Numbered from the stretch's first letter, positions 2,730-59,624 are shown. The stretch is 61,319 bases of DNA from an uncultured Bacillota bacterium (GCA_902796855.1 CADBQN010000019.1:1-61319); one strand, 5' to 3'. Numbers and translations are program-made. The notes: generated by a model not told the origin, from the sequence alone.

Positions 2730-3533
2730 ATGAAGATCAAAGCCATCTGTGCCGCCCTGGCGGCGTTCCTCGTGTTCGGCGCCGCCGCCTTCGGCGCGGA
2801 GCTGGTCTCCTATCCCGTGGCGGACATCGGCGTCACCCTGGGGATCCCCGCCGAATATAACTACGTTTTTACCAGGGATATCAGCGACGATGACCCGATC
2901 CTCGCCGACTGGGGCATTTCCAAAGGGGAGCTCTTTGAGAACGGCAATATCTACCTGGAAGCCCTGACCGAGGATCAGAACGACGAGCTCATCGTCATGG
3001 CCATGGATACCGACTGGTCGGAAATGTATTACGACTTCAACACCGTCAGCGATGAGGACCTGATGGCCCTGGCGGAATATACCCACTCCCTCGTGGACAA
3101 GGACGGCGGCGCCAACGTCGCCTACGACGAGTACGTCCTCTTTAAAGGCCAGCCCCAGGTGCCCTTCATCAAGGCCAAAGGGCGCTTTCAGACCGACACC
3201 GCCGAAGGCGGCGTCGTTCAGTACGTCACCGTCCTCAACGGTTCGTTCTATACCCTCTCCTTCAACTTCTACGGCGGCGCCGTCAGCGAAGCGGACGACG
3301 CCCTCACCGAAGAGGTCGTTTCCGCGCTGACCTTTGACGCGGTGAAGGCGCCGAAGAAATCGAAGGATTCCCTGCTCTATGTCGTTGTCATCGTTGCTCT
3401 CGTCGCCGTCATCGCCGGGCTTCTGCTGGTGATCCGGCGTCAGAAATACTCGCTGAAAGCGCCGGAGAACGGCGCCGCGGCGGAGGAACCGGCGGCAACG
3501 GCCGGAACGGCTGAAACGGAACGGGAAGAATAA
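2730..3533 (+). CDS. Secreted, C-terminally membrane-anchored protein of unknown function
   Basis: I do not recognise the family. The 267-residue product begins with a clear signal peptide (MKIKAICAALAAFLVFGAAAF, cleavage near FGA-EL), has an acidic extracellular region of about 190 residues, then a membrane segment near 213-233 (VVVIVALVAVIAGLLLVI), basic RRQK and an Ala/Glu-rich tail. This predicts an extracellular domain held by one C-terminal membrane helix. Start ATG at 2730 has GGAAAGGA upstream. It has its own promoter and terminator, so it is likely monocistronic. Function unknown. Confidence 0.75.
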   Translation: MKIKAICAALAAFLVFGAAAFGAELVSYPVADIGVTLGIPAEYNYVFTRDISDDDPILADWGISKGELFENGNIYLEALTEDQNDELIVMAMDTDWSEMYYDFNTVSDEDLMALAEYTHSLVDKDGGANVAYDEYVLFKGQPQVPFIKAKGRFQTDTAEGGVVQYVTVLNGSFYTLSFNFYGGAVSEADDALTEEVVSALTFDAVKAPKKSKDSLLYVVVIVALVAVIAGLLLVIRRQKYSLKAPENGAAAEEPAATAGTAETEREE

Positions 3534-3538
3534 AAGCG

Positions 3539-3563
3539 GAAGCGCCGATCCGGCGCTTTCTTA
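3539..3563 (+). terminator. Terminator after the 2730 gene
   Basis: An AAGCGCCG / CGGCGCTT stem with loop ATC, followed by TCTT, lies between two plus-strand genes. Confidence 0.6.
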
Positions 3564-3574
3564 ACGGAGGTATC

Positions 3575-4747
3575 ATGCGCTATCGCGTCAATCCCAAAAC
3601 CGGCGACCGCCTTTCCCTCCTCGGCCTCGGCTGCATGCGGTTCACGAAAAAGAACGGCGCCATCGACCAGGAAAAAGCGGAACAGGTGATGGCTCACGCC
3701 CTCGCCCAAGGCATCAACTATTTTGACACCGCCTGGCTCTACCCGGGCAATGAGGCCGCCGTGGGCCGGTTTTTGGCCAAGGGCCACCGCGATGAGGTGG
3801 TGCTGGCGACGAAAATGCCCCAGTATAAAGTAAAGAAGACCGCCGATTTCGACGGCTTTTTCGGCGAGGAGCTGGAACGGCTCCAAACGGACTATATCGA
3901 TTATTACCTGATGCACATGCTGTCGGATTTCGCCTCCTGGCAGCGGCTGAAGGATCTCGGCGTCGCCGCCTGGATCGAGGCGAAAAAGGCCGCCGGCGCC
4001 ATCCGCCGGATCGGCTTTTCCTATCACGGCGGCACCGATGGCTTTTTGAGGATCCTCGACGATTACGACTGGGATTTCTGCCAGATCCAGTATAATTACG
4101 TCGACGAGCGGGGTCAGGCCGGCGTCGACGGCTTAAAGCGCGCCGCCGAAAAGGGCATTGCCGTCGTCATCATGGAACCGCTGCGCGGCGGCCGCCTCGC
4201 CGACCAGATCCCGGAAAAAGCCGCCGAAGTCTTCCGCAAAGCGGGAGGGACCCCGGCGGAATGGGGCCTGAAATGGCTCTTTGCCCAGGAAGAGGTCACC
4301 GTGGTGCTTTCGGGGATGAACAGCGTTGGTCAGATCGACGAGAACGCCGCCATCGCCGAAAAGACCGAGACCGGCGCTTTGAGCGGGGAAGAGCTCGCCG
4401 TCTATGAGGACGCCAAGGCCGCCATCAGGAGCGGCGTCAAGGTGCCCTGCACCGGCTGCGGCTACTGCATGCCCTGTCCCCACGGCGTCGACATCCCCAC
4501 CTGCTTCCACAGCTACAACACAAAAGCGTCGGAAGGCTGGTACACCGGTCTGAAGGAATATTTTATGTGCACGACGATGAAGCAAAAGCCCAGCGCCGCC
4601 TCGGCCTGCGTGGGCTGCGGCAAGTGCGAGAAGCACTGCCCCCAGCGGCTGCCCATCCGCCGTTACCTGAAAGAAGTGAAAAAACACATGGAAGGCCCCG
4701 CCTATAAGATCGCCCGGCGGGGAGCGCGGCTGATCATGCGCTTTTGA
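3575..4747 (+). CDS. Aldo/keto reductase with C-terminal 4Fe-4S ferredoxin domain
   Basis: A cytosolic oxidoreductase of the aldo/keto reductase superfamily, in the subgroup that carries bacterial-ferredoxin clusters; substrate unknown. 390 residues. The barrel starts with GLGCMRF. The catalytic tetrad can be placed as Asp in YFDTAWLYPG, Tyr in the same motif, Lys in LATKMP and His in YYLMHML. The C terminus has one cysteine set in CTGCGYCMPCPHGVDIPTC and a second in CVGCGKCEKHCPQ, enough for two [4Fe-4S] clusters. Start ATG is preceded by ACGGAGG. It stands alone between a terminator and the next gene's promoter. Such proteins suit an anaerobe that couples carbonyl reduction to ferredoxin. 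Confidence 0.9.
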   Translation: MRYRVNPKTGDRLSLLGLGCMRFTKKNGAIDQEKAEQVMAHALAQGINYFDTAWLYPGNEAAVGRFLAKGHRDEVVLATKMPQYKVKKTADFDGFFGEELERLQTDYIDYYLMHMLSDFASWQRLKDLGVAAWIEAKKAAGAIRRIGFSYHGGTDGFLRILDDYDWDFCQIQYNYVDERGQAGVDGLKRAAEKGIAVVIMEPLRGGRLADQIPEKAAEVFRKAGGTPAEWGLKWLFAQEEVTVVLSGMNSVGQIDENAAIAEKTETGALSGEELAVYEDAKAAIRSGVKVPCTGCGYCMPCPHGVDIPTCFHSYNTKASEGWYTGLKEYFMCTTMKQKPSAASACVGCGKCEKHCPQRLPIRRYLKEVKKHMEGPAYKIARRGARLIMRF

Positions 4748-4765
4748 ATGATTCGCTTTTCGTGT

Positions 4766-4794
4766 TTGACAGACCGCCTCCGCGGTGGTACACT
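4766..4794 (+). promoter_or_regulatory. Strong sigma-A promoter for the DUF5714-like gene
   Basis: TTGACA (4766-4771), 17-bp spacer, TACACT (4789-4794). The start codon follows at 4828. Confidence 0.75.
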
Positions 4795-4827
4795 GTCCCA
4801 AACGAAACGGAAAGGGAGGTGGCGGCG

Positions 4828-5523
4828 GTGAACGACGGCTGCCTGATCTGCGGCGCGCCGCTGATCTATACAAAAGAGGACGAAGCGGCGGAGTGCGCCC
4901 TCTGCCATAAGCGGGAGCTCACCAAAGCCCGCTGTGAGAACGGTCACTACGTCTGCGACGAATGCCACGAAAAGGGTCTCGACGCGGCGGTGGACATCTG
5001 CCGCCGTTCCCCGTCGGCGGATCCCTTCGCCGTCCTGGAAGAGCTGATGGCGGCGGATTTCTGCCACATGCACGGCCCGGAACATCACGTCCTCGTCGCC
5101 GCGGCGATCCTGACGGCCTATCGGAACGGCGGCGGCGAACTCGACCTGGAAAAGGCTTTGACCGAGGCGGTGCGCCGCGGTCGGCAGGTGCCCGGCGGCG
5201 TCTGCGGTTTTTGGGGCGCCTGCGGCGCGGCCATCGGTTCCGGCATCGCCGTCTCGATCCTGTCCGGCGCCACACCGCTGGCGAAGGAGACTTACGGCCT
5301 CGCCAACGGGATGACGGCCCGGGCCCTGGCCGACATCGCGGCGGTGGGCGGCCCCCGCTGCTGCAAGCGCAATTCCTATCTGGCCCTGAACGCCGCCGCG
5401 GACTTCCTCGCCGAACGCTTCGGCGTGGCGCTGTCCCGGCCGAAGGTGGTCTGCCGCCACTCGGAGCGGAACGCTCAGTGCATTGGCAGGCGCTGCCCTT
5501 TCTTTAAATCATCGGAAAAATGA
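4828..5523 (+). CDS. Cysteine-rich DUF5714-like protein
   Basis: Matches in character the DUF5714 family of Clostridia and archaea, whose function is not established. 231 residues starting at GTG 4828, chosen because GGAGGT lies 7 nt upstream and the promoter lies between 4766 and 4794, so a longer reading would start inside it. The N terminus has zinc-ribbon-like pairs (CLICG, CALCHKRE, CENGHYVCDECHEKG). The middle has HGPEHHVLVAAAIL and GVCGFWGACGAA, with further cysteines in PRCCKRNS and near the end (VCRH, QCIGRRCPFF). The many Cys and His suggest metal or cluster binding, which is inference. Confidence 0.7.
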   Translation: MNDGCLICGAPLIYTKEDEAAECALCHKRELTKARCENGHYVCDECHEKGLDAAVDICRRSPSADPFAVLEELMAADFCHMHGPEHHVLVAAAILTAYRNGGGELDLEKALTEAVRRGRQVPGGVCGFWGACGAAIGSGIAVSILSGATPLAKETYGLANGMTARALADIAAVGGPRCCKRNSYLALNAAADFLAERFGVALSRPKVVCRHSERNAQCIGRRCPFFKSSEK

Positions 5524-6127: not shown

Positions 6128-6766
6128 CTACTCCTTCGGGATGATGAGGCCGTTCAGGTCGCTGAAAGAGGAAACGGTATAAGGCGCCGCGGGAACGTCG
6201 CCGAAGCCGTAGGCGGCAAAGATAAAGTCGATCCCGGCCAGCGCCGCCGAGCGGCGGTCCTTTTCGGTGTCGCCGATGTAGACCGCGTTTTTGAGCCGGT
6301 GTTTTTCGATGATATGGCGGATGTTCTCCGGTTTGTCGCGGCCGGTGTCGCCGTAGCAGATGAAGTCGGTGAACCGCGGCGAGAGCCGATGATGGGAGAG
6401 AAAGGCCTCGATGTAGCCTTTGTCGCAGTTGCTGACGATGAACAGCGGCAGCTTTTGGGCGAGGGCGGCGAGGGTCTCCTCGACGCCGGGGTAGAGAGTG
6501 CCGCCGATGGCCGGCAACCGCCTGCTCTCCGCCTCGACGCAGCGCAGCATCACTTCCATGCGGCGCTTCGGCGCGAGGTCGGGAAAGAGCCGGTCGGCGA
6601 TTTCCGCGGTGGTCAGCCCCATGATGGCGACGACCTGTTCCTCGCCGATGGCGTAGGGGATGTCGTCCTCGGCGGCGATGACGTCGTTCCAGATGACGGC
6701 GATGTTCGCCACGCTGTCCCATAAAGTGCCGTCGAGATCAAAAATACAGCTGTCCCACTTTGCCAT
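6128..6766 (-). CDS. HAD-superfamily phosphatase (Gph-like), ends in UAG
   Basis: A haloacid-dehalogenase hydrolase resembling phosphoglycolate phosphatases. 212 residues from the ATG at 6766, which has AAAGGAAG upstream. HAD motif I is DLDGTL (residues 10-15), motif II VSNCDKG, motif III Lys in GRDKPENI, motif IV GDTEKDRR. A helical cap lies between motif I and about residue 80. The substrate cannot be read from the sequence. The stop is UAG, unusual in this window; the frame continues through CCC into mntP. It forms an operon with mntP (3-bp gap). Confidence 0.85.
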   Translation of the reverse strand: MAKWDSCIFDLDGTLWDSVANIAVIWNDVIAAEDDIPYAIGEEQVVAIMGLTTAEIADRLFPDLAPKRRMEVMLRCVEAESRRLPAIGGTLYPGVEETLAALAQKLPLFIVSNCDKGYIEAFLSHHRLSPRFTDFICYGDTGRDKPENIRHIIEKHRLKNAVYIGDTEKDRRSAALAGIDFIFAAYGFGDVPAAPYTVSSFSDLNGLIIPKE

Positions 6767-7572: not shown

Positions 7573-9012
7573 GTGCGTGACGAAAAGACCGACCTGAGAC
7601 AGGAACTATCGACGCTGGGACAGAAAGTGAAGGACTTTCTGTCGAAACGTCCCGAAGTGAATCGGGGAAGATCGGCAGGACGGCGGCGAACGGAACCGGC
7701 GGTGCCGCGCTTTGCCGACGAGGAAGCCGTGGAACCGATGACGGCGGAACCCCGGGAACGGGAAACCGCCTTTGACGACGCTCCGGCGGAGCGGCGCGCT
7801 CCCCGGCGGGATTCCGCCCGGCGGAAAACGGCGAAAAAAGGCGGCGGTCTCCGTCTGCCCTCGTTCTTTCGCGCCCCGGGGCCGGCGGTCCGGCGGCCGA
7901 AACGGAACGGCCGCGTCGTCGTTCCCGTCTTTCTCCAGACCACCATCGCCGTTTTCGTCTGCTGCGGCGTTCTCGCCGCCGCGGGCTTTGCCCTCTTTAC
8001 CGTGGAACAGTATGAGATCGCCGGTCTCAAAGCGGATCTGAAGACCTACGCCGACGCCGGTGTCGTCCCCGCCGATTCCCTTGAGGATTCCCTGGCCCTG
8101 AACGTGGAAGCGTTGGCCGGCCGTGTCGCCGCCCTGGAAAAGATCTCCGCCTCCGGCGGCGGCGCTTCCCTCGGCGGCGAGGATCTCCAGTGGCTCGGCG
8201 CGGAGCTCACCGCCGTCCAGGAAGAGGCCCGGAAGATGGATCAGATCCTCAACGACGTCGACGCCGCGGACAATGTCCGCGCCGCCTTTAAGGACAAGAT
8301 CCAAAGCCCCCTCGTTACCCTGCAGCAGAATTACGACAGCCTCGGCATTTCCGATGAGGACGTCGCCTCCACCTCGGTGGAGACCGGCGCGGCGACGAAT
8401 ACCGGTGAGTTCAAGCTCGCCAACGCCCTGCGGAGAGGGATCCGCTGGACGCTGCTGATCCTCGCCGTCCTCGCCGTCCTCGTCCTGATCTGTCTGGCGC
8501 TCCGCCGCCGTTTCGGCGGCTCCCTCGCCGCGGCCCTCCGGGAGCGGCCCCAAAAGGCCGCCAAGGCGAAAAAACAGAGACCGCGTCGTTCCGCCGCCGC
8601 GAAGGGCAAAAAACGCCAGCGCCCCGCCGCGAAAGAAACGGTGAAGCCTGCCGCCCCGGCCGCCGCGGCGGCCGACGCCCCGGAAGCGGCGGCGGAAGCT
8701 GAATCCGCCGAGCCCGCCGGGAGCGAACCGCCCCGGGCCGGGGACGAAGACGAAAACAACGCTGATGCCGAGGCGGCAGCGGCCGCCGCGGCGGAAGCCG
8801 CCAAAAAGGAAGAAACGGATTTTTATGAGAATCTCGCGCCGTCGCTGAAAAAGATGGCGGAAACGGAACGGGCCAACGCCGCCGAAGGCGCGGCGATGCC
8901 TTCCCCCGCCGAGGAGGATCTCCTCTCCTTCGACGCTTCCGTGGAATCCCTGGGGAGCATCGACAGCGACGACGACGATCTCTTTCTCGCCGACGGCGGC
9001 GACGAGGCGTAA
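7573..9012 (+). CDS. Two-helix membrane protein with Ala/Glu-rich tail, unknown
   Basis: No family recognised. 479 residues from GTG 7573, with GGAGGG 8-10 nt upstream. A basic, Arg-rich N-terminal cytoplasmic part (1-113) is followed by membrane helix 1 at about 116-140, then an outer region to about 290 with helical, coiled-coil-like heptads, then helix 2 at about 291-312. The C-terminal ~165 residues are low complexity: first Lys/Arg-Ala, then Ala/Glu, then a strongly acidic end (Ser-Asp-Asp). It is the first gene of an operon with a GAP1-like protein, an FHA-SEDS fusion and a penicillin-binding protein, so a scaffold or regulatory role in envelope growth is plausible but only inferred. 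Confidence 0.75.
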   Translation: MRDEKTDLRQELSTLGQKVKDFLSKRPEVNRGRSAGRRRTEPAVPRFADEEAVEPMTAEPRERETAFDDAPAERRAPRRDSARRKTAKKGGGLRLPSFFRAPGPAVRRPKRNGRVVVPVFLQTTIAVFVCCGVLAAAGFALFTVEQYEIAGLKADLKTYADAGVVPADSLEDSLALNVEALAGRVAALEKISASGGGASLGGEDLQWLGAELTAVQEEARKMDQILNDVDAADNVRAAFKDKIQSPLVTLQQNYDSLGISDEDVASTSVETGAATNTGEFKLANALRRGIRWTLLILAVLAVLVLICLALRRRFGGSLAAALRERPQKAAKAKKQRPRRSAAAKGKKRQRPAAKETVKPAAPAAAAADAPEAAAEAESAEPAGSEPPRAGDEDENNADAEAAAAAAAEAAKKEETDFYENLAPSLKKMAETERANAAEGAAMPSPAEEDLLSFDASVESLGSIDSDDDDLFLADGGDEA

Positions 9013-9045
9013 AAGGCGCCGTCCGCCGTCTGAAAGGATGAGGAT

Positions 9046-10113
9046 ATGATCGGACAATACTACTATCAGAGCAAAAACGGCGCCGGGGGCCGCCTGCGGA
9101 TCACCCCCGGTTTCGAGTCGTTCGACAGGAACTTTTACAGAAGAGGGGCAGTCTTCGGCGGGGAATTTGCCCCTCCCGCCTTATTATACGACCGCGGCGG
9201 CGGCTTCTACTTTGTCGGCCGGGAGGAACTCGTCTCCGACGGCGACGACGTGCTCACCCTGCGCCACGGCTTCCTCTTCCCCGAGGAGCTCTTCGCCGAC
9301 GGCAAAGGCACCTTCGGCGCCAAGCTCTACCGCTTTTTCGACATCGCCGATTTCGACTGCACCCCCGAAGGCTTTGCCCGGGAGGAAGCGCCCCCGCCGG
9401 TGAAGCGGCTGCGGGTCGCCGCCGGCGCCAGCGATTTCCTCCGCCCCGAGGACGTCTTTCGCCGGGGCAGGGAACACAGCCGCTTTGTGCGGCTGCTGCT
9501 CTACGCCGCGATGATGGCCGTGACCGACGATTTTTCCCTGGTCTTCCTGATCCCCCCGGCCAAGGAAGAGAGTTATCACCGCCAGGCGGCGCTGATGGTG
9601 AAGAGCCTCTTTTCCCTGCTCCCCTGGGAGCTTCGGGAGGAGCTGACGTTCCACACCTGCGTCGACGACCGGGACGCCCTGGGGCAGACGAAGATCAGCG
9701 TCACGCCGCTGCCGAAGGACCGGATGCCCCGGAGCAACCGCCTGTTCTTCTTCGATTTTTCCCGCTTCAAGGTCAGCCCCGACCTGGTCATCGAGCAGAA
9801 GACCCGGGGCACGCTGACGCCCTACCTGCTCTATCAAATCTGGTCGAATCGCGACGAAAAGGCCCTTTCGGCGCTGTTCTATATTTTCCACCACAACCGC
9901 GCCCTGCTGCGCTCCGCCCCGCTGACCGAGACGCGGATCGACGCCCTCACCTGCTTTTTCCTCCTGACGGAGGTGGGAGAGAGCTACCGCGCCGATCTCG
10001 GCGACGAGCTGGAACGGATCAGCAAGGGCACGGCGAGAGAGATCATGCTCTTTCTCGCCGGTCACGTCACCAACAAGGATTTTCTGCGTTTAAGGGAAAT
10101 GCTCGACGTTTAA
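9046..10113 (+). CDS. Unknown soluble protein, possibly GAP1-N-like
   Basis: 355 residues, no signal peptide or membrane helix. The N terminus (QYYYQSKNGAGGRLRITPG) faintly resembles the opening of GAP1-N domains of GTPase-associated proteins, where a Q-x-Y-Y/W start is followed by a glycine-rich turn; I regard this as a weak hint. The middle (LVFLIPPAKEESYHRQAALM, LPWELREELTFHTCVDD) resembles segments of such proteins, where about a dozen residues around LPWELR report a conserved helix. Start ATG follows AAGGATGAGGAT. It lies 33 bp after the membrane protein and 49 bp before the FHA-SEDS gene in the same operon. Confidence 0.6.
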   Translation: MIGQYYYQSKNGAGGRLRITPGFESFDRNFYRRGAVFGGEFAPPALLYDRGGGFYFVGREELVSDGDDVLTLRHGFLFPEELFADGKGTFGAKLYRFFDIADFDCTPEGFAREEAPPPVKRLRVAAGASDFLRPEDVFRRGREHSRFVRLLLYAAMMAVTDDFSLVFLIPPAKEESYHRQAALMVKSLFSLLPWELREELTFHTCVDDRDALGQTKISVTPLPKDRMPRSNRLFFFDFSRFKVSPDLVIEQKTRGTLTPYLLYQIWSNRDEKALSALFYIFHHNRALLRSAPLTETRIDALTCFFLLTEVGESYRADLGDELERISKGTAREIMLFLAGHVTNKDFLRLREMLDV

Positions 10114-43087: not shown

Positions 43088-44260
43088 TTGATTTTATCAG
43101 GAGATGTCGCTTTTCTTTTTTTCGCCTCTGTCTTCATTTTGTTTATGACACCGGCCGTTGCCTATTTTTACGGCGGTCTTGTAACCGAAAAATTCACCAA
43201 CACGATGATTATGCAGACCTTTTTCGCCATTCCCCTGATTACCCTTGTTTGGGGGATTCTCGGCTTTTCCCTGGCTTACGGCGAAAGTGTCCTCGGCGGG
43301 TTCTGCGGGAACCTGGATTTTGCCTGTTTCCAAAATCTTCTGGATGACAGCCGCAATATCTGGGCGCCCGGCGTGCCGCTGACAATTTATTTTGTCGTCC
43401 AGCTGAGTTTTGCCGTGATTACGCCGGTGCTGATCATCGGCGCTCTCATCGGGCGGCTGCGTTTCCGTCCTTTTGTGGCTTTTTTCATTCTTTGGTCGCT
43501 GCTGGTTTACAGCCCCCTTGTTCACTGGGTCTGGGGCGGCGGTTTCCTTTCGCGGCTGGGCTATATTGATTTTGCCGGCGGTCTCCCCGTTCACGGCATT
43601 GCCGGCTTTTCGTCGCTGGCGGCGGTTTTTGCCATCGGCAACCGGGAAAAACCGGAAGACGGTCCTTCCAATCTGATGTACGTCGCCATCGGCGTCGGCA
43701 TCCTCTATGCAGGCTGGCTGATTTTTAACGCCAGCGCCGCGCTGGGCGCCAACGCCACGGCCTGCCTCGCCGCCGTCAATACGCTGATTTCCAGCGGCGC
43801 GAGCTGTATCGCCTGGCTCCTGCTTGCCTATCGCGACAACAAAAAAATCACCGTCAGCGATGTCATTTTCGGCGCATTTGCCGGTCTTGTCATCTCAACG
43901 CCGACGGGAGGCTTTGTCGCGCCCTGGGTGATGCTGCCCGCGGGCTTTCTCGGCGGAATCGCCTGTTACCTCGCCATCGCCTTTCGGATCAAACGCGGCT
44001 GGGATGACAGTCTCGATGTCTGGGGGCTGCACGGCGTCGCCGGGTTCCTCGGCGTGCTGCTGCTGGGGCTCTTTGCCCATCCCGATCTCGCGCCGGCGGC
44101 GGGGAGCTTTTACGGCAACCCCGGTCAAGTCGGTATCGAGGCGCTGGGTCTGCTCATCGGCGGCGTCTACTGCTTTGCTGTTACCTTTGTGATGGTAAAA
44201 ATCATCAATCGCATTTCTCGGTTTCGTCAGGACGGCGAAGCGCCGGAAGTCTTTGAGTAA
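43088..44260 (+). CDS. amt: Ammonium transporter Amt
   Basis: Passes ammonium (or methylammonium) across the membrane. 390 residues, normal length, about eleven helices. Family features: MTPAVAYFYGGLV at the N terminus, and the twin pore His in PVHGIAGFSSL and WGLHGVAGFLG. Start TTG 43088 follows GAGGAGG. The AT-rich upstream region (42914-43087) has TATAAT at 43003-43008 and 43017-43022 as possible -10 boxes. No GlnK gene is linked. It sits upstream of a PocR/AraC regulator and two mttB genes; amine demethylation ends in ammonia, so a role there is plausible inference. Confidence 0.92.
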   Translation: MILSGDVAFLFFASVFILFMTPAVAYFYGGLVTEKFTNTMIMQTFFAIPLITLVWGILGFSLAYGESVLGGFCGNLDFACFQNLLDDSRNIWAPGVPLTIYFVVQLSFAVITPVLIIGALIGRLRFRPFVAFFILWSLLVYSPLVHWVWGGGFLSRLGYIDFAGGLPVHGIAGFSSLAAVFAIGNREKPEDGPSNLMYVAIGVGILYAGWLIFNASAALGANATACLAAVNTLISSGASCIAWLLLAYRDNKKITVSDVIFGAFAGLVISTPTGGFVAPWVMLPAGFLGGIACYLAIAFRIKRGWDDSLDVWGLHGVAGFLGVLLLGLFAHPDLAPAAGSFYGNPGQVGIEALGLLIGGVYCFAVTFVMVKIINRISRFRQDGEAPEVFE

Positions 44261-44360: not shown

Positions 44361-45650
44361 ATGAAAAAGACGGAATTAGAAAAGTCGGAACGAAAAATCA
44401 ATAAACTGCTCAGCGACGTGTTTTTGTCCTTCGGGATTTCCTGCGGCTTTTTTGACGGCGACGGCCGCCAGCTGGGATACTGCAGCTACGAAGGCCGAAG
44501 CAATTTCTGCCGCTTCGTCAGCTTTTACGATACGGAGCAGGTCTGCCGCAAATCCTATCTAAAGAGCTTTGGCGAGTGCCGCCGCCGCGGCGTTCCCTAT
44601 ATCTATTTTTGTCCCTACGGTCTGGTCAACATCGCTTTTCCCGTCTTCCGTCGGGGAGAGGAGGACGTTTTCGTCACCGTCGGTCCGATGCTGTACCGTC
44701 CGCCGGAAAACGACACGATCTCCCGGGCGCTCGAACGGAATTTCCTGCTGAAGCCGCGGGCGCGGGAAGTGCGCCAGTATCTCAACGACATCCCGGTGAA
44801 GAACGAAAACGACGTCTATTCCATGGCCTCCATCATCGAAAGCGCTCTGAGGGGCATCGTCGTCTCCCGCGGCGAGGGCGAGACCATCGCCATCGAGGGC
44901 GATTCCCTTGCCGCCGCGGCGGGCCCCGGGAAGAGTCCGGGCCGGGGCGGCGCGGAACCGCCGCCGTTCCACCGGTGGCTCCGGCGGCTCTCCGCCGCCG
45001 GCGGACGGAACGGCGAGTTCCCCAAAGAAGAGCTGGATCATTGGATCATGGTCTTTACCGATTATATCTTTGCCGAGTCCGATCTGAAAACGGCGGTGAA
45101 CCACACGCTGAAATACATCGAGATCCTGACGGATCTCACCCGGGCGGCGCGGATCTATCCCGGTCAGCTCTTCAACCCCGACGGCATCGACGTGGAAAAG
45201 GTGCTGACCGTTCAGACCAAGGATGACCTGGAAACCCTTGTGCTCTATTATAACGAGATGTTTCGCGGTGTCTTCCTGGCCAAGCGGGAAGCGAAGAACA
45301 AAGACACCGTCTATCGCGCCATGCACTATATCCAGAACCACTACGGCGATATCACCCTCGCCGACGTCGCCGAGGCCGTCGGCCTCAACCCCGCTTATTT
45401 CAGCAACTACTTTAAGCGGGCCACCGGCGAAAGCTATTCGGGCTATCTGAATAAAGTGCGCATCGAGGAGAGCAAGCGATTGCTGATGACGGACTGTTCC
45501 ATCTCGGAAATCGCCCAGCGGGTAGGGTTCTCCGATCAGAGCTACTTTACCAATGTGTTTAAAAAGATAGAGGGCGTTTCGCCGAACCGCTGGCGAAAAG
45601 CCCATGAGGAGAGGGGGGAGAACGATGATACGCTGGGAAAACGGATTTAA
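44361..45650 (+). CDS. AraC-family regulator with PocR sensory domain
   Basis: Transcription factor predicted to sense a small molecule and control the neighbouring methyltransferase genes. 429 residues. An N-terminal PocR ligand-binding domain (about 10-170) has the family's conserved Cys pattern: NFCRF, QVCRKSY, GECRRRG and YFCPYGL. A linker includes low-complexity Pro/Gly near 195-215. The C-terminal AraC double HTH (about 312-415) contains ITLADVAEAVGLNPAYFSNY and SISEIAQRVGFSDQSYFTNV. ATG 44361 follows GAGGGGCGC. Its end overlaps the mttB1 start by 26 bp, so the two are cotranscribed. Confidence 0.9.
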   Translation: MKKTELEKSERKINKLLSDVFLSFGISCGFFDGDGRQLGYCSYEGRSNFCRFVSFYDTEQVCRKSYLKSFGECRRRGVPYIYFCPYGLVNIAFPVFRRGEEDVFVTVGPMLYRPPENDTISRALERNFLLKPRAREVRQYLNDIPVKNENDVYSMASIIESALRGIVVSRGEGETIAIEGDSLAAAAGPGKSPGRGGAEPPPFHRWLRRLSAAGGRNGEFPKEELDHWIMVFTDYIFAESDLKTAVNHTLKYIEILTDLTRAARIYPGQLFNPDGIDVEKVLTVQTKDDLETLVLYYNEMFRGVFLAKREAKNKDTVYRAMHYIQNHYGDITLADVAEAVGLNPAYFSNYFKRATGESYSGYLNKVRIEESKRLLMTDCSISEIAQRVGFSDQSYFTNVFKKIEGVSPNRWRKAHEERGENDDTLGKRI

Positions 45651-47013
45651 CAGCCAATTGCTGACGGAGGAAGACATCCGGGCGATCGACCGCGCCTCCG
45701 TCGATATCCTCGTGAACAGCGGCGTCATTTTTGATTCTCCGGAGGCCCTGGCGATCTTTCAGGATCACGGCGCCGCGGTGGACTGGTCGTCGCGCCGCGT
45801 CCGCCTGACGGAGCCGATCATCGAAAAAGCGCTGAAAACGGCGCCGTCCTCCTTTGTTTTAAAGGGCAGGGACCCCCGCTGTGATTACCTGATGGGCGAG
45901 AATCAGAGCGGTTTCACCACCTTTGGCGTGGGCTTTTCCGTCGTGGACCGGATCACCGGCGAGCTCAGGGATTCCACGAAAAAGGACCTCATCGAAAGCG
46001 TCATCCTCAGCGATTACCTCGAGAACATCGACATCTACTCCCACGCCCTCGCCGCCAGGGACTGTCCGCTGCGCTCCGTTGACCTCCACGAGGCCGAGGC
46101 CTTTCTCACCAATACCGTGAAGCACTGTATGCACCTGGATCTGGGGGAAAGGCGAAACATCCGACGCTTCATCGAGATGGCCGGCGCCGTCACCGACGGT
46201 GTGCTGGATCTCTATAAGAACCCGGTGGTCTCGGCGCTGACCTGTCCTTTAAGCCCCCTGCGCTTTTCCGCCAACAGCTGCGACCTCATCATCGAGTTCG
46301 CCCGGGTGGGGCTGCCGGTGAACATCCTGCCGATGGCCATCGCCTCCCAGACGGCGCCGGTGACCATCGCCGGCACCATCGTCGTCAGCAACAGCGAGTT
46401 TTTGGCGGGGCTGGCGCTGTCCCAGCTCACCTCCGCCGGCGTGCCGGTGATCTACGGCTGCTCCGACACCACCTTCGACTACGCCGACAACGTCACCCCG
46501 GTGGGCTCCCCGGAACTGGGGCTGTGCAGCGCCGCCGCCGCGGCCATGGCCCGGTTCTATCAGATCCCCAGCTATGTGGCGGGGACGTAGGCGGACAGCA
46601 AATTCAGCGATCTCCAGTGCGCCCATGAAAAGACGCTGACGACGCTGGCGCCGTTCTTCCAAAAATCCAATCTCATCTTCGGCGCCGGCATGTTGGAAAT
46701 GGGCATTACCTTCAGCTTCGCTCAGCTGATCCTCGATCACAGCTACATCGACCGTATCAAGGAGATACCGTCCCTGGCGAAGCTGCCGGAGTCCATCAAC
46801 GATCCCTCCTTTGTGAAGGAGCTCGTTTCCGCCTACCGCGGCGATTCCCGACCGCGGAAGAACGGCCATGCCCGGCCGCGGCGGCAAAAGACCGCCGTTA
46901 CCGCGGCGGAAGCCCGGAACATCGCCAATGAGATCATCCATACCCACCGCGTGCCGTCTCTCGACCGCCCCACCCTGAACCAGCTGCGCAGGATCATCGC
47001 TTCCGCCGAGTGA
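45625..47013 (+). CDS. mttB: Pyrrolysine-containing MttB-family methyltransferase 1 (in-frame UAG)
   Basis: Transfers a methyl group from trimethylamine, or another methylated amine, to a cognate corrinoid protein. 462 residues when UAG 46588-46590 (codon 322) is read as pyrrolysine; context YVAGT-O-ADSK is the family's active site. After UAG the frame runs 140 codons of MttB-like sequence to TGA, including GAGMLEMGITFSFAQLI. ATG 45625 has a GAGGGGGGAG site. N-terminal blocks (TTFGVGFSVVDRITGE, DLHEAEAFLTNT) closely match mttB2. After about residue 370 it diverges: the HT-rich block conserved in mttB2 and mttB3 is missing and a basic segment (RPRKNGHARPRRQK) stands there. Ordinary gene calling would split this gene at UAG. 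Confidence 0.9.
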
Positions 47014-47211
47014 TTTCGCGTTTTGTTGTTTTTTTGGATTCCGTTACCGCGGCGTTAGTGTGTTTTGTTGTAAAATATATTGAAATATAAAAGTTTCAAA
47101 AAACGAATAAAGATAACACAATACATTTTGTCCGATTTTGTTTATTCTAATTTTACAAGGAACACCTGCTGATTTTCGGAATTCACAAAAACAGAAAGGA
47201 GATGCGCCAAT

Positions 47212-48681
47212 ATGACCGTCAGAAATCACAGCGCGAATTATGTTCAGAAAAAAGGGTTCAGCGTCAGCATGTACACCCCCGATGAACTGCAGCAGATCCA
47301 TCTTGCCACCTTGGAAGTCCTGTGGCAGGAAGGCGTCCACGTCAATGACAAAAGAGCGATGGACGTCTTTAAACAGGGCGGCGCCGTCGTCGATTACGAC
47401 ACCTGCAAAGTACGGATCCGTCCCTATATGGTCGAGGAAGCCATCAAAAGCGCCCCCTCCACCATCATCCTGGCCAGCCGCGACGGCAAGCACGACTACG
47501 TGATGGACGGCAGCCGCGTCGGCTTCACGACCTTCGGCGCCGGCGTCACCGTCATCGACATGGAGACCGGCCAGCCGCGGAACTCCACCAAACAGGACCT
47601 CATCAACACCGCCATCTGCGGTGACTATCTCGATACCGTCAGTTTCTATTCCCACGCCGTCAGCGCCCAGGATACCCCCGCTTCCGCCTGCGATCTGCAT
47701 GAGGCCGAAGCCTTCCTGAGCAACACCACGAAGCACAGCATGCATATCGACCTGGCCCACAGCGAGAACATCCCCAAATACATCGACATGGCCGCGGCCA
47801 TCGTCGGCAGCCGGGAAGATCTCTATATCCGCCCGATCTGCTCGGCGCTGACCTGCCCCCAGAGCCCCCTTCAGCTCCATAAAATCACCACCGATATCAT
47901 CATGGAATTCGGCAAAGTAGGCCTGCCGGTGAACATCCTCTCAATGGCGATGTCCGGCGCGACGACACCGGTGACCATCGCCGGCACCCTCGTCTGCCAC
48001 AACGCCGAAGTCCTCGCCGGGATCGTCCTTTCCCAGCTGGCGAACAAGGGCGCGCCGGTGATCTACGGCAGCTCCACCACCGCCTTTGACCTGCAAATGG
48101 CCAGCGCTCCCGTGGGTTCCCCGGAACTGGGCATCTGCAACGCCGGCGTTATCGCCCTGGCGCAGTACTACAATCTTCCCAGTTACTGCGCGGGCACTTA
48201 GGCGGACAGCAAACTGTCCGACGCCCAGGCCGGCCATGAAAAGACCATTACCGCGATGATGGCCGCGTTGGCAGGGTCCAACGCCATCTACGGAATGGGC
48301 ATGCTGGAAATGGGCGTTACCTTCTCCTTCGCTCAGCTGATCATCGACGACGGCATCGCCAAGATGGTGCATCGCGTCATCAGCGGCGTCGACGTCACCG
48401 ACGATACCCTGGCTGTGGACGTCATCAAGGAAGTCGGCGGCGGCCAGGGCAAACAGTTCCTGACCCATCAGCACACCTATGACAACATGCGCAAGGAACT
48501 CTCCATCGGCGGCATCTTTGACCGCAACGTCCGCCAGACCTGGGAAATGAACCGCGGCGGCAAGGACGTGGCCGAGATCGCCAACGAACAGGCCAAAGAA
48601 ATTATCGCCACCCACAAGCCGGAACCGCTGGAAAGAGCCGTTCAGAACGAACTCCGCCGCATCGTCAAATCGGCGGAATAA
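47212..48681 (+). CDS. mttB: Pyrrolysine-containing MttB-family methyltransferase 2 (in-frame UAG)
   Basis: Methylated-amine:corrinoid methyltransferase. 489 residues with pyrrolysine at codon 330 (UAG 48199-48201), close to the ~495 of archaeal MttB with pyrrolysine at 334. Context YCAGT-O-ADSK. The C-terminal part is complete: GMGMLEMGVTFSFAQLI, VDVTDDTLAVDVIKEVGGG, FLTHQHTYDNMRKEL. Start ATG follows AAAGGAGATG. The 198-bp AT-rich gap before it may carry its own promoter. A TTTTGTCCGA sequence at 47127 faintly resembles the inverted-repeat arm found upstream of the Crp/Fnr gene. Followed by two terminators. No mttC-type corrinoid gene is adjacent. Confidence 0.94.
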
Positions 48682-58133: not shown

Positions 58134-59624
58134 TCATTTGTTCTTTTTGTCTTCTTCCGCGAATTCCGCTTCGGCGTCTGTGATCATTTTATCAAAATGA
58201 GCCATTGTTTCCGCTGTCAAGATGCCGGGATCACCCTTCGCGAGGATTTCTTTCGCGCGGTCTTCCGCTGCTTCGTGAATGTCTTTCGCTCCCGCGAGTT
58301 TCCACTCATCCCAGGTCTGACGATTGGAGATCAGAGGAACGGACTGAAGCTTTCTGAAGTTTTCAAAGGTATGGGGAGTGCTGAGGAAATTACCGCCGAT
58401 GCCGATTTCCTTAATCAGATCGACCGCGAGGGTTTCATCATTAACATCCATGCCGGCTAAGGCGAATTTGGCCATGCGAATGTGGTCGGCGTCAACAATC
58501 AACTGTCCTAAGTCCATTGATAAGCCGTTTTCAAGCATGCCGCCGCCGTAGATCAGCGTGGCGCCTCCGAGCATGGCCAACAGCGTGGTCAGGCTCTTTT
58601 CAAAAGCGCACTGTTCGTCGGGAACTTTGGAGTCCGTCTAGGTGCCGGCGGCCATAGACGGAATGTTATACCATCTGGCCATCTGGCTGAAAGCGCCGGA
58701 AATCAGGGCGAGTTCGGGGCAACCGACCATTGCCGCGGCGTTCTGACGCATATCGTTCAGACCTGTGGAGGAGTTCATATTAAAGGCATGTCCTTTATCC
58801 AACGCTTGTGCCAGTACGTTCGCGCCGAGAGGTTCCGCCACCGTTTCGACCAAAGCTCCGGCCATCGTTACGGGAGACATCCCGCCGATCATGGCCATAG
58901 AGGTAATGCCGATGGGCAGACCGTACTGCGCGCCCAAACGAATGGTCATGCAGGTACTGGCAGGGATTTCCATGGGGCTGATGGTGCAGCCGCCAATCTG
59001 GAAAAGGGGGCGTTTTTTCAGATTTTCGTAACCGCCGGAATAATATGCGGCCATATCGATGACTTTTTTGGCCTGGCGTTCTTCAAGCCCGCCGGATAAA
59101 AGCGGTTTTCTTGTGTTGGCGAAATGCGCCTGGAAATTATGCATCGCTTCCACGTCGGGATTAACGTCCTGGGCAATAATGGTGTGCATAATGACGTCAA
59201 ACTCGTCTAAAGTATCCGTAACTCTGCACACGTCTACGATATCCTGTTTTGTGGTTTTGCGGCGTTCGTGGGTATAGAGGTCTCTCATCATGATACCGCA
59301 TCCGAACGTAATGAAGTTTACCCTTCCGCTTTCCAGCCAAACATCATGTTCCTCGTCTTTCCCCGCGAGGAGGTAACCGCTGGGAGCTGTCCGAATGGCG
59401 TCTTCCACGATGTTATGCGGGAATTTGACAATCTTTTTTTCAAAGTCCACTTCGCATCCGATATCCGCGAGGACTTCACAGCATTCTTTGTCGTCAATCA
59501 GCATACCTGTTTGACTCAGCACTTCCAATGCGGCGGAATGGATCAACTGCTTGTCTTCTTCCGACAGCATTTGCAGACCCAAGCCGCTGCCGGCGTTCCG
59601 ACCGACAAAATGGTTTTTAATCAT
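58134..59624 (-). CDS. mttB: Pyrrolysine-containing MttB-family methyltransferase 3 (in-frame UAG)
   Basis: Methylated-amine:corrinoid methyltransferase. 496 residues, pyrrolysine at codon 329 (UAG 58640-58638), context MAAGT-O-TDSK. C-terminal part complete: GGGMLENGLSMDLGQLIVD, MDVNDETLAVDLIKEIGIGG, FLSTPHTFENFRKL. ATG 59624 has AAGGAG 7 nt upstream. It is more distant from mttB1 and mttB2 than they are from each other, and its base composition is less GC-rich, so it probably has a different substrate or origin. First gene of a minus-strand cluster with MFS permease 2. No corrinoid-protein gene is adjacent. Confidence 0.93.

Follow-up and report, generated by a model that had tools for sequence, protein, structure and literature searches.

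Adjacent ordinary and loop-altered pyrrolysine MttB genes beside a PocR-AraC regulator, and a possible sensing role for pyrrolysine

Two adjacent MttB genes, each carrying an in-frame UAG, lie behind a regulator gene in a 61,319-nucleotide stretch of DNA from an uncultured Bacillota bacterium (GCA_902796855.1 CADBQN010000019.1:1-61319; hereafter the window), and the question that they raise is whether both encode working methyltransferases or whether one has taken up another role. The pyrrolysine proteins that have been characterised well are methylamine methyltransferases, and in these the residue is catalytic.

Gene order and the reading of UAG

The cluster, encoded on the plus strand, opens with an Amt-family ammonium/methylammonium transporter (43088..44260; TIGR00836, and PF00909 with 270 bits over residues 8-383 of 390). 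It is followed by a PocR-sensor AraC-type transcription regulator (44361..45650) in which both PF10114 (66.5 bits, residues 11-166) and HTH_18 (PF12833; 83.6 bits, residues 337-413) score over their cut-offs. An Amt upstream and a PocR-AraC regulator overlapping mttB1 had been proposed in a preliminary description of the locus, and the domains and coordinates bear this out. PocR, which is thought to bind small molecules, also occurs in a regulator of the mec cluster of strain DCMF (PMC9768040). The overlap with mttB1 (45625..47013) amounts to 26 nt if that gene begins at ATG 45625, a start that fits the ortholog described below and is preceded by a Shine-Dalgarno-like AGGAGAGGGGGGAG, or to 47 nt with the alternative start at ATG 45604. 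An AT-rich gap of 198 nt (47014..47211, plus strand) separates mttB1 from mttB2 (47212..48681); it may hold a promoter for mttB2, although a consensus scan of the gap returned no forward promoter.

The same order of Amt, PocR-AraC, MttB1 and MttB2 is found on a contig of 6,945 bases (L031; G002:C52) in a genome of the same genus (CALFRX01, 'uncultured Peptococcaceae'), with the Amt in the same position and 71% identical, the regulator overlapping mttB1 by 4 nt and an equivalent gap of 122 nt between the two MttB genes. Separately, a sequence labelled Synergistaceae (L021; JAISRE010000133.1) encodes an MttB2 that is 74% identical to that of the window and falls among the sequences of this genus in the tree, for which gene transfer, a binning error or a labelling error are suggested alternatives.

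Both mttB1 and mttB2 contain a single in-frame TAG (46588..46590 and 48199..48201, plus strand), each in the context AGT-O-ADSK, beyond which the frame stays open for 140 and 159 codons, respectively. A profile match to PF06253 spans the TAG in each protein (residues 17-387 of MttB1 and 8-485 of MttB2), and the alignment with Methanosarcina barkeri MttB (7xcl/7xcm) runs across both UAG codons, placing each of them at Pyl334. Since the frames continue and the MttB homology passes through the TAG, these frames are not due to chance, and the earlier observations of one UAG per gene in the context GT-O-ADSK, with more than 130 MttB-like codons after it, are upheld.

That UAG stands for pyrrolysine had likewise been proposed, and a search of the source genome recovered the full pyl cassette in a single locus on contig C5 (coordinates from L020): pylSc (3259-4170), pylD (4259-5071), tRNA-Pyl with anticodon CUA (6254-6326), pylB, pylC and pylSn (9547-9924), with a pterin-binding methyltransferase (8718-9530) within the locus. 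Judged by this gene content, the source cell is able to read UAG as pyrrolysine. With a crude gene caller, 29 of about 276 genes in this genome, roughly a tenth, terminate in UAG. The 18 MttB genes of this 2.11-Mb genome comprise eight that lack UAG and ten in which a single UAG occupies the pyrrolysine site; three of the ten (mttB1, mttB2 and mttB3) are carried by the window. The last of these, mttB3 (58134..59624, minus strand; TAG, 540 bits), is a further canonical pyrrolysine MttB outside the pair that was absent from the preliminary description; it keeps the full loop and Tyr364 and is flanked by two MFS transporters and a Crp-type regulator.

There was no match to a corrinoid protein (TIGR02370) anywhere in the window, in line with the absence of mttC beside the pair that had been reported, while about ten matches occur elsewhere in the genome, several adjoining dimethylamine methyltransferase genes, as the suggestion of a shared corrinoid protein encoded elsewhere had anticipated. 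Most of the ten pyrrolysine mttB genes have no adjacent mttC, so its absence here is usual for this genome, and the placing of the corrinoid-protein genes points to a shared corrinoid pool as the normal state. On gene content, a cognate corrinoid protein for MttB1 and MttB2 should be available among these candidates. The genome further encodes six UAG-bearing dimethylamine methyltransferases (contigs C4, C53, C37, C63, C44 and C17), most adjoining a corrinoid-protein gene, and one MtmB homolog (contig C44) that is without UAG. On C17, a corrinoid-protein gene (L017:1011-1557) appears to be interrupted by an in-frame TAA together with a shift of frame; it adjoins a UAG-bearing dimethylamine gene, which is cut near the contig start.

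Divergence of MttB1 from ordinary pyrrolysine MttBs

Against the curated TIGR02369 cut-off of 525 bits, MttB2 is a canonical pyrrolysine trimethylamine methyltransferase, scoring 682 bits over profile positions 2-469, aligning to 7xcl through residue 488 and possessing both Tyr364 (M. barkeri numbering throughout) and a full loop of 61 residues. MttB1 scores 465 bits and matches only positions 4-372 of 469; among the near-full-length TAG-bearing matches from 43 genomes of the class, it and its L031 ortholog are the only two that fall under the cut-off. The part of MttB1 that is not matched maps to the 57-residue dimerization loop of M. barkeri MttB (396-452), which joins the subunits and by which the neighbouring subunit holds MttC (PMC9842639). 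By alignment the loop has 44 residues in MttB1 and 45 in the ortholog, compared to 57-61 in 55 ordinary pyrrolysine MttBs. Position 364 is Phe in MttB1 and its ortholog and Tyr in MttB2 and all 55 ordinary proteins, and the exchange Y364F in M. barkeri MttB lowers Vmax from 48 to 1.7 per min, a drop of ~28-fold (PMC9842639). Seven further residues that are invariant in the 55 (Gly202, Gly253, Gly359, Gly396, Ile409, Thr424 and Trp445) are changed in MttB1, and the ortholog departs at every one of them as well.

What MttB1 keeps is the pyrrolysine, the barrel and the equivalents of Gly110, Met249 and Gly372. In an AlphaFold2 model, for which M. barkeri MttB is the best match in the PDB, the barrel and two anchoring helices have high confidence and residues ~384-424 form a low-confidence coil. 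Taken together, the alignment and this monomer model suggest that MttB1 has lost the docking of a corrinoid protein. An assembly error or frameshift behind the MttB1 tail was ruled out, as the ortholog has an equally short tail and the frame is kept through the last two helices. The score under the cut-off, the missing loop and Phe in place of Tyr364 make a plain catalytic role for MttB1 doubtful, and the initial view of the two genes as equivalent methyltransferases is not supported. The pair as first noted belongs to a known kind of MttB, and the loop-altered form of MttB1 is what is new.

The loss of the loop together with faster evolution (dN/dS ~0.24 for MttB1 vs ~0.09-0.13 for MttB2, with the MttB1 tail changing faster than the barrel) would be expected of a functionless, decaying duplicate. 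This is a very improbable explanation, in that the ortholog, at 64% identity, retains the frame, the UAG and the overlap with the regulator, and a comparable form recurs with low dN/dS in a second lineage (see below).

A second possibility is that MttB1 is still catalytic, acting on another tertiary or quaternary amine or with another corrinoid partner, such that the Tyr and the usual docking loop are not needed. The purifying selection on the barrel and the retained pyrrolysine, Gly110, Met249 and Gly372 equivalents would all fit such an enzyme, as would the varied substrates of the MttB superfamily (PMC9768040) and the roughly ten corrinoid-protein matches in the genome, yet MttB1 has given up active-site and docking residues kept by 55 of 55 ordinary pyrrolysine MttBs, no corrinoid gene is nearby and the coupling to a regulator arose twice, so that continued catalysis appears unlikely, though clearly less so than decay.

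Recurrence of the loop-altered form beside regulators

When 398 genomes of the phylum were searched with the altered tail and the loci were read, five more loop-altered pyrrolysine MttBs emerged, in five genomes of one other family (L077, L106, L107, L108 and L109). The shared-tail model (A1) was used for candidate finding only, because the tail model of this second group scores MttB1 no better than ordinary MttBs. All five units have the order MoxR-type AAA, VWA/CoxE-like, MttB and CBS-PAS-sigma54 activator, the activator overlapping the MttB gene by 28-32 nt in three and being separated from it by 2 nt and 152 nt in the other two. In each of the five loci, the MoxR-type AAA ATPase and VWA/CoxE-like pair immediately precedes the loop-altered MttB. 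The loops of this group are 48-50 residues long and differ in sequence, and position 364 is Phe in three of the five proteins and Tyr in the other two.

In a tree built from the barrel only, the second group is sister to the ordinary MttB of its own genomes, and MttB1 joins the MttB2 line. A common origin of the two groups was rejected by this tree and by the AU test (p-AU 0.0065), and on this phylogenetic evidence loop-altered pyrrolysine MttBs have been derived independently at least twice. The UAG is retained in all seven of their genes, which argues that the pyrrolysine still does something, and the loss of the corrinoid-docking face argues that for MttB1 this is not ordinary demethylation.

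Among 63 distinct pyrrolysine MttB genes flanked by 300 nt or more of sequence, a same-strand regulator of the PocR/AraC or sigma54 type, the only types counted, lies within 152 nt of 7/7 loop-altered genes and 0/56 of the others, a count that does not amount to seven independent events since there are only two origins. Loop labels were taken from the alignment, by which L078 is loop-altered and L021, L041 and L069 are not.

The pair might also form a mixed oligomer, in which a corrinoid protein is docked onto the site of MttB1 by the loop of MttB2, or the activity of MttB2 is tuned by MttB1. The docking of MttC by the partner subunit's loop in M. barkeri (PMC9842639) offers a precedent for this, the two genes are adjacent and come from one duplication, and a loop of MttB2 that could serve MttB1 counts against the loss of docking proposed above. 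It is nevertheless mttB1 and the regulator that are tightly coupled, with 198 nt between mttB1 and mttB2, and the loop-altered gene of the second group lies in a separate transcription unit ~2 to 6.5 kb from the ordinary mttB; we consider a mixed oligomer improbable, more so than a catalytic MttB1.

A proposed role for MttB1 and its relation to known systems

The reading that we favor, at a probability of about one half, is that MttB1, with its pyrrolysine, senses amines or acts as a regulatory partner, and that MttB2 is the working enzyme. The sequences themselves show the capacity to decode pyrrolysine, the loss of loop and Tyr, the conserved gene order, the adjacency to a regulator and the independent recurrence; from these we infer the adduct as a signal, the contact with the regulator and the target genes. 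The locus would be an amine-use control unit, its host a Peptococcaceae-like anaerobe that specialises in methylated amines. MttB2 would act as a trimethylamine methyltransferase with pyrrolysine, handing the methyl group to corrinoid proteins encoded elsewhere. MttB1, a duplication product of the MttB2 line, still has the barrel and its reactive pyrrolysine but has lost both the loop for subunit pairing and corrinoid docking and the hydroxyl of Tyr364, which accelerates turnover. A covalent adduct of trimethylamine, or of an amine like it, would then form at this pyrrolysine and be demethylated hardly or not at all, the state of the adduct would be reported to the translationally coupled PocR-AraC regulator and, with amine present, the regulator would let amt and mttB2 be made.

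Several observations count against a sensor. As a ligand-binding domain in its own right, PocR may work without a partner, genes adjoining regulators are common, slow turnover persists in vitro in the Y364F form of M. barkeri MttB (PMC9842639) and the Tyr is still present in two of the five proteins of the second group. The wider proposal, that weakened MttB paralogs of at least two origins use pyrrolysine for covalent sensing, capturing a methylated amine at its pyrroline ring and controlling a PocR-AraC partner in one lineage and a CBS-PAS-sigma54 partner in the other, is more tentative than the reading of MttB1 itself and falls somewhat short of an even chance.

Pyrrolysine sensing, if true, would give the 22nd amino acid a use in signalling rather than in catalysis. 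A twice-derived, regulator-coupled pyrrolysine MttB that has lost its loop and mostly its Tyr makes pyrrolysine signalling testable. The loop-altered proteins bear on how amine-eating anaerobes time the production of their methyltransferases, and in metagenomes a UAG-bearing MttB should not automatically be counted as a trimethylamine demethylase.

Compared to M. barkeri MttB (7xcl, 7xcn; TIGR02369), MttB2 shares the TIM barrel, Pyl334, Tyr364, the loop and the full length, whereas MttB1 is alike in the barrel, Gly110 and the pyrrolysine and unlike in its Phe364, the missing 396-452 loop, its score under the TIGR02369 cut-off and the overlap with a regulator gene. 'Candidatus Formimonas warabiya' DCMF (NZ_CP017634.1), of the same class as the source genome, has many pyrrolysine and non-pyrrolysine MttBs (PMC6778437, PMC9768040); no loop-altered pyrrolysine MttB was found in it, as the TAG-bearing matches listed all reach the end of the model and pass the cut-off. 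The non-pyrrolysine members of the superfamily (MtgB, MtcB, MtyB and MtpB), to which the eight UAG-less MttB genes of the source genome compare, have the fold of MttB1 but the opposite combination of traits, with the UAG absent and a C-terminal loop of about the usual length. Proteins over the pyrrolysine MttB cut-off but without UAG were also seen (L064 (G008:C5), G004:C139, G010:C1:5753705, G069:C72 and G110:C1:461025); that of L064 has Ile at the pyrrolysine site and keeps Tyr364 and the loop, which suggests a secondary loss of pyrrolysine. The literature search found no paper on a regulatory pyrrolysine MttB or on a trigger enzyme that uses a corrinoid or pyrrolysine. Trigger enzymes are enzymes that double as gene regulators, and by analogy the working mode proposed for MttB1 would be like theirs.
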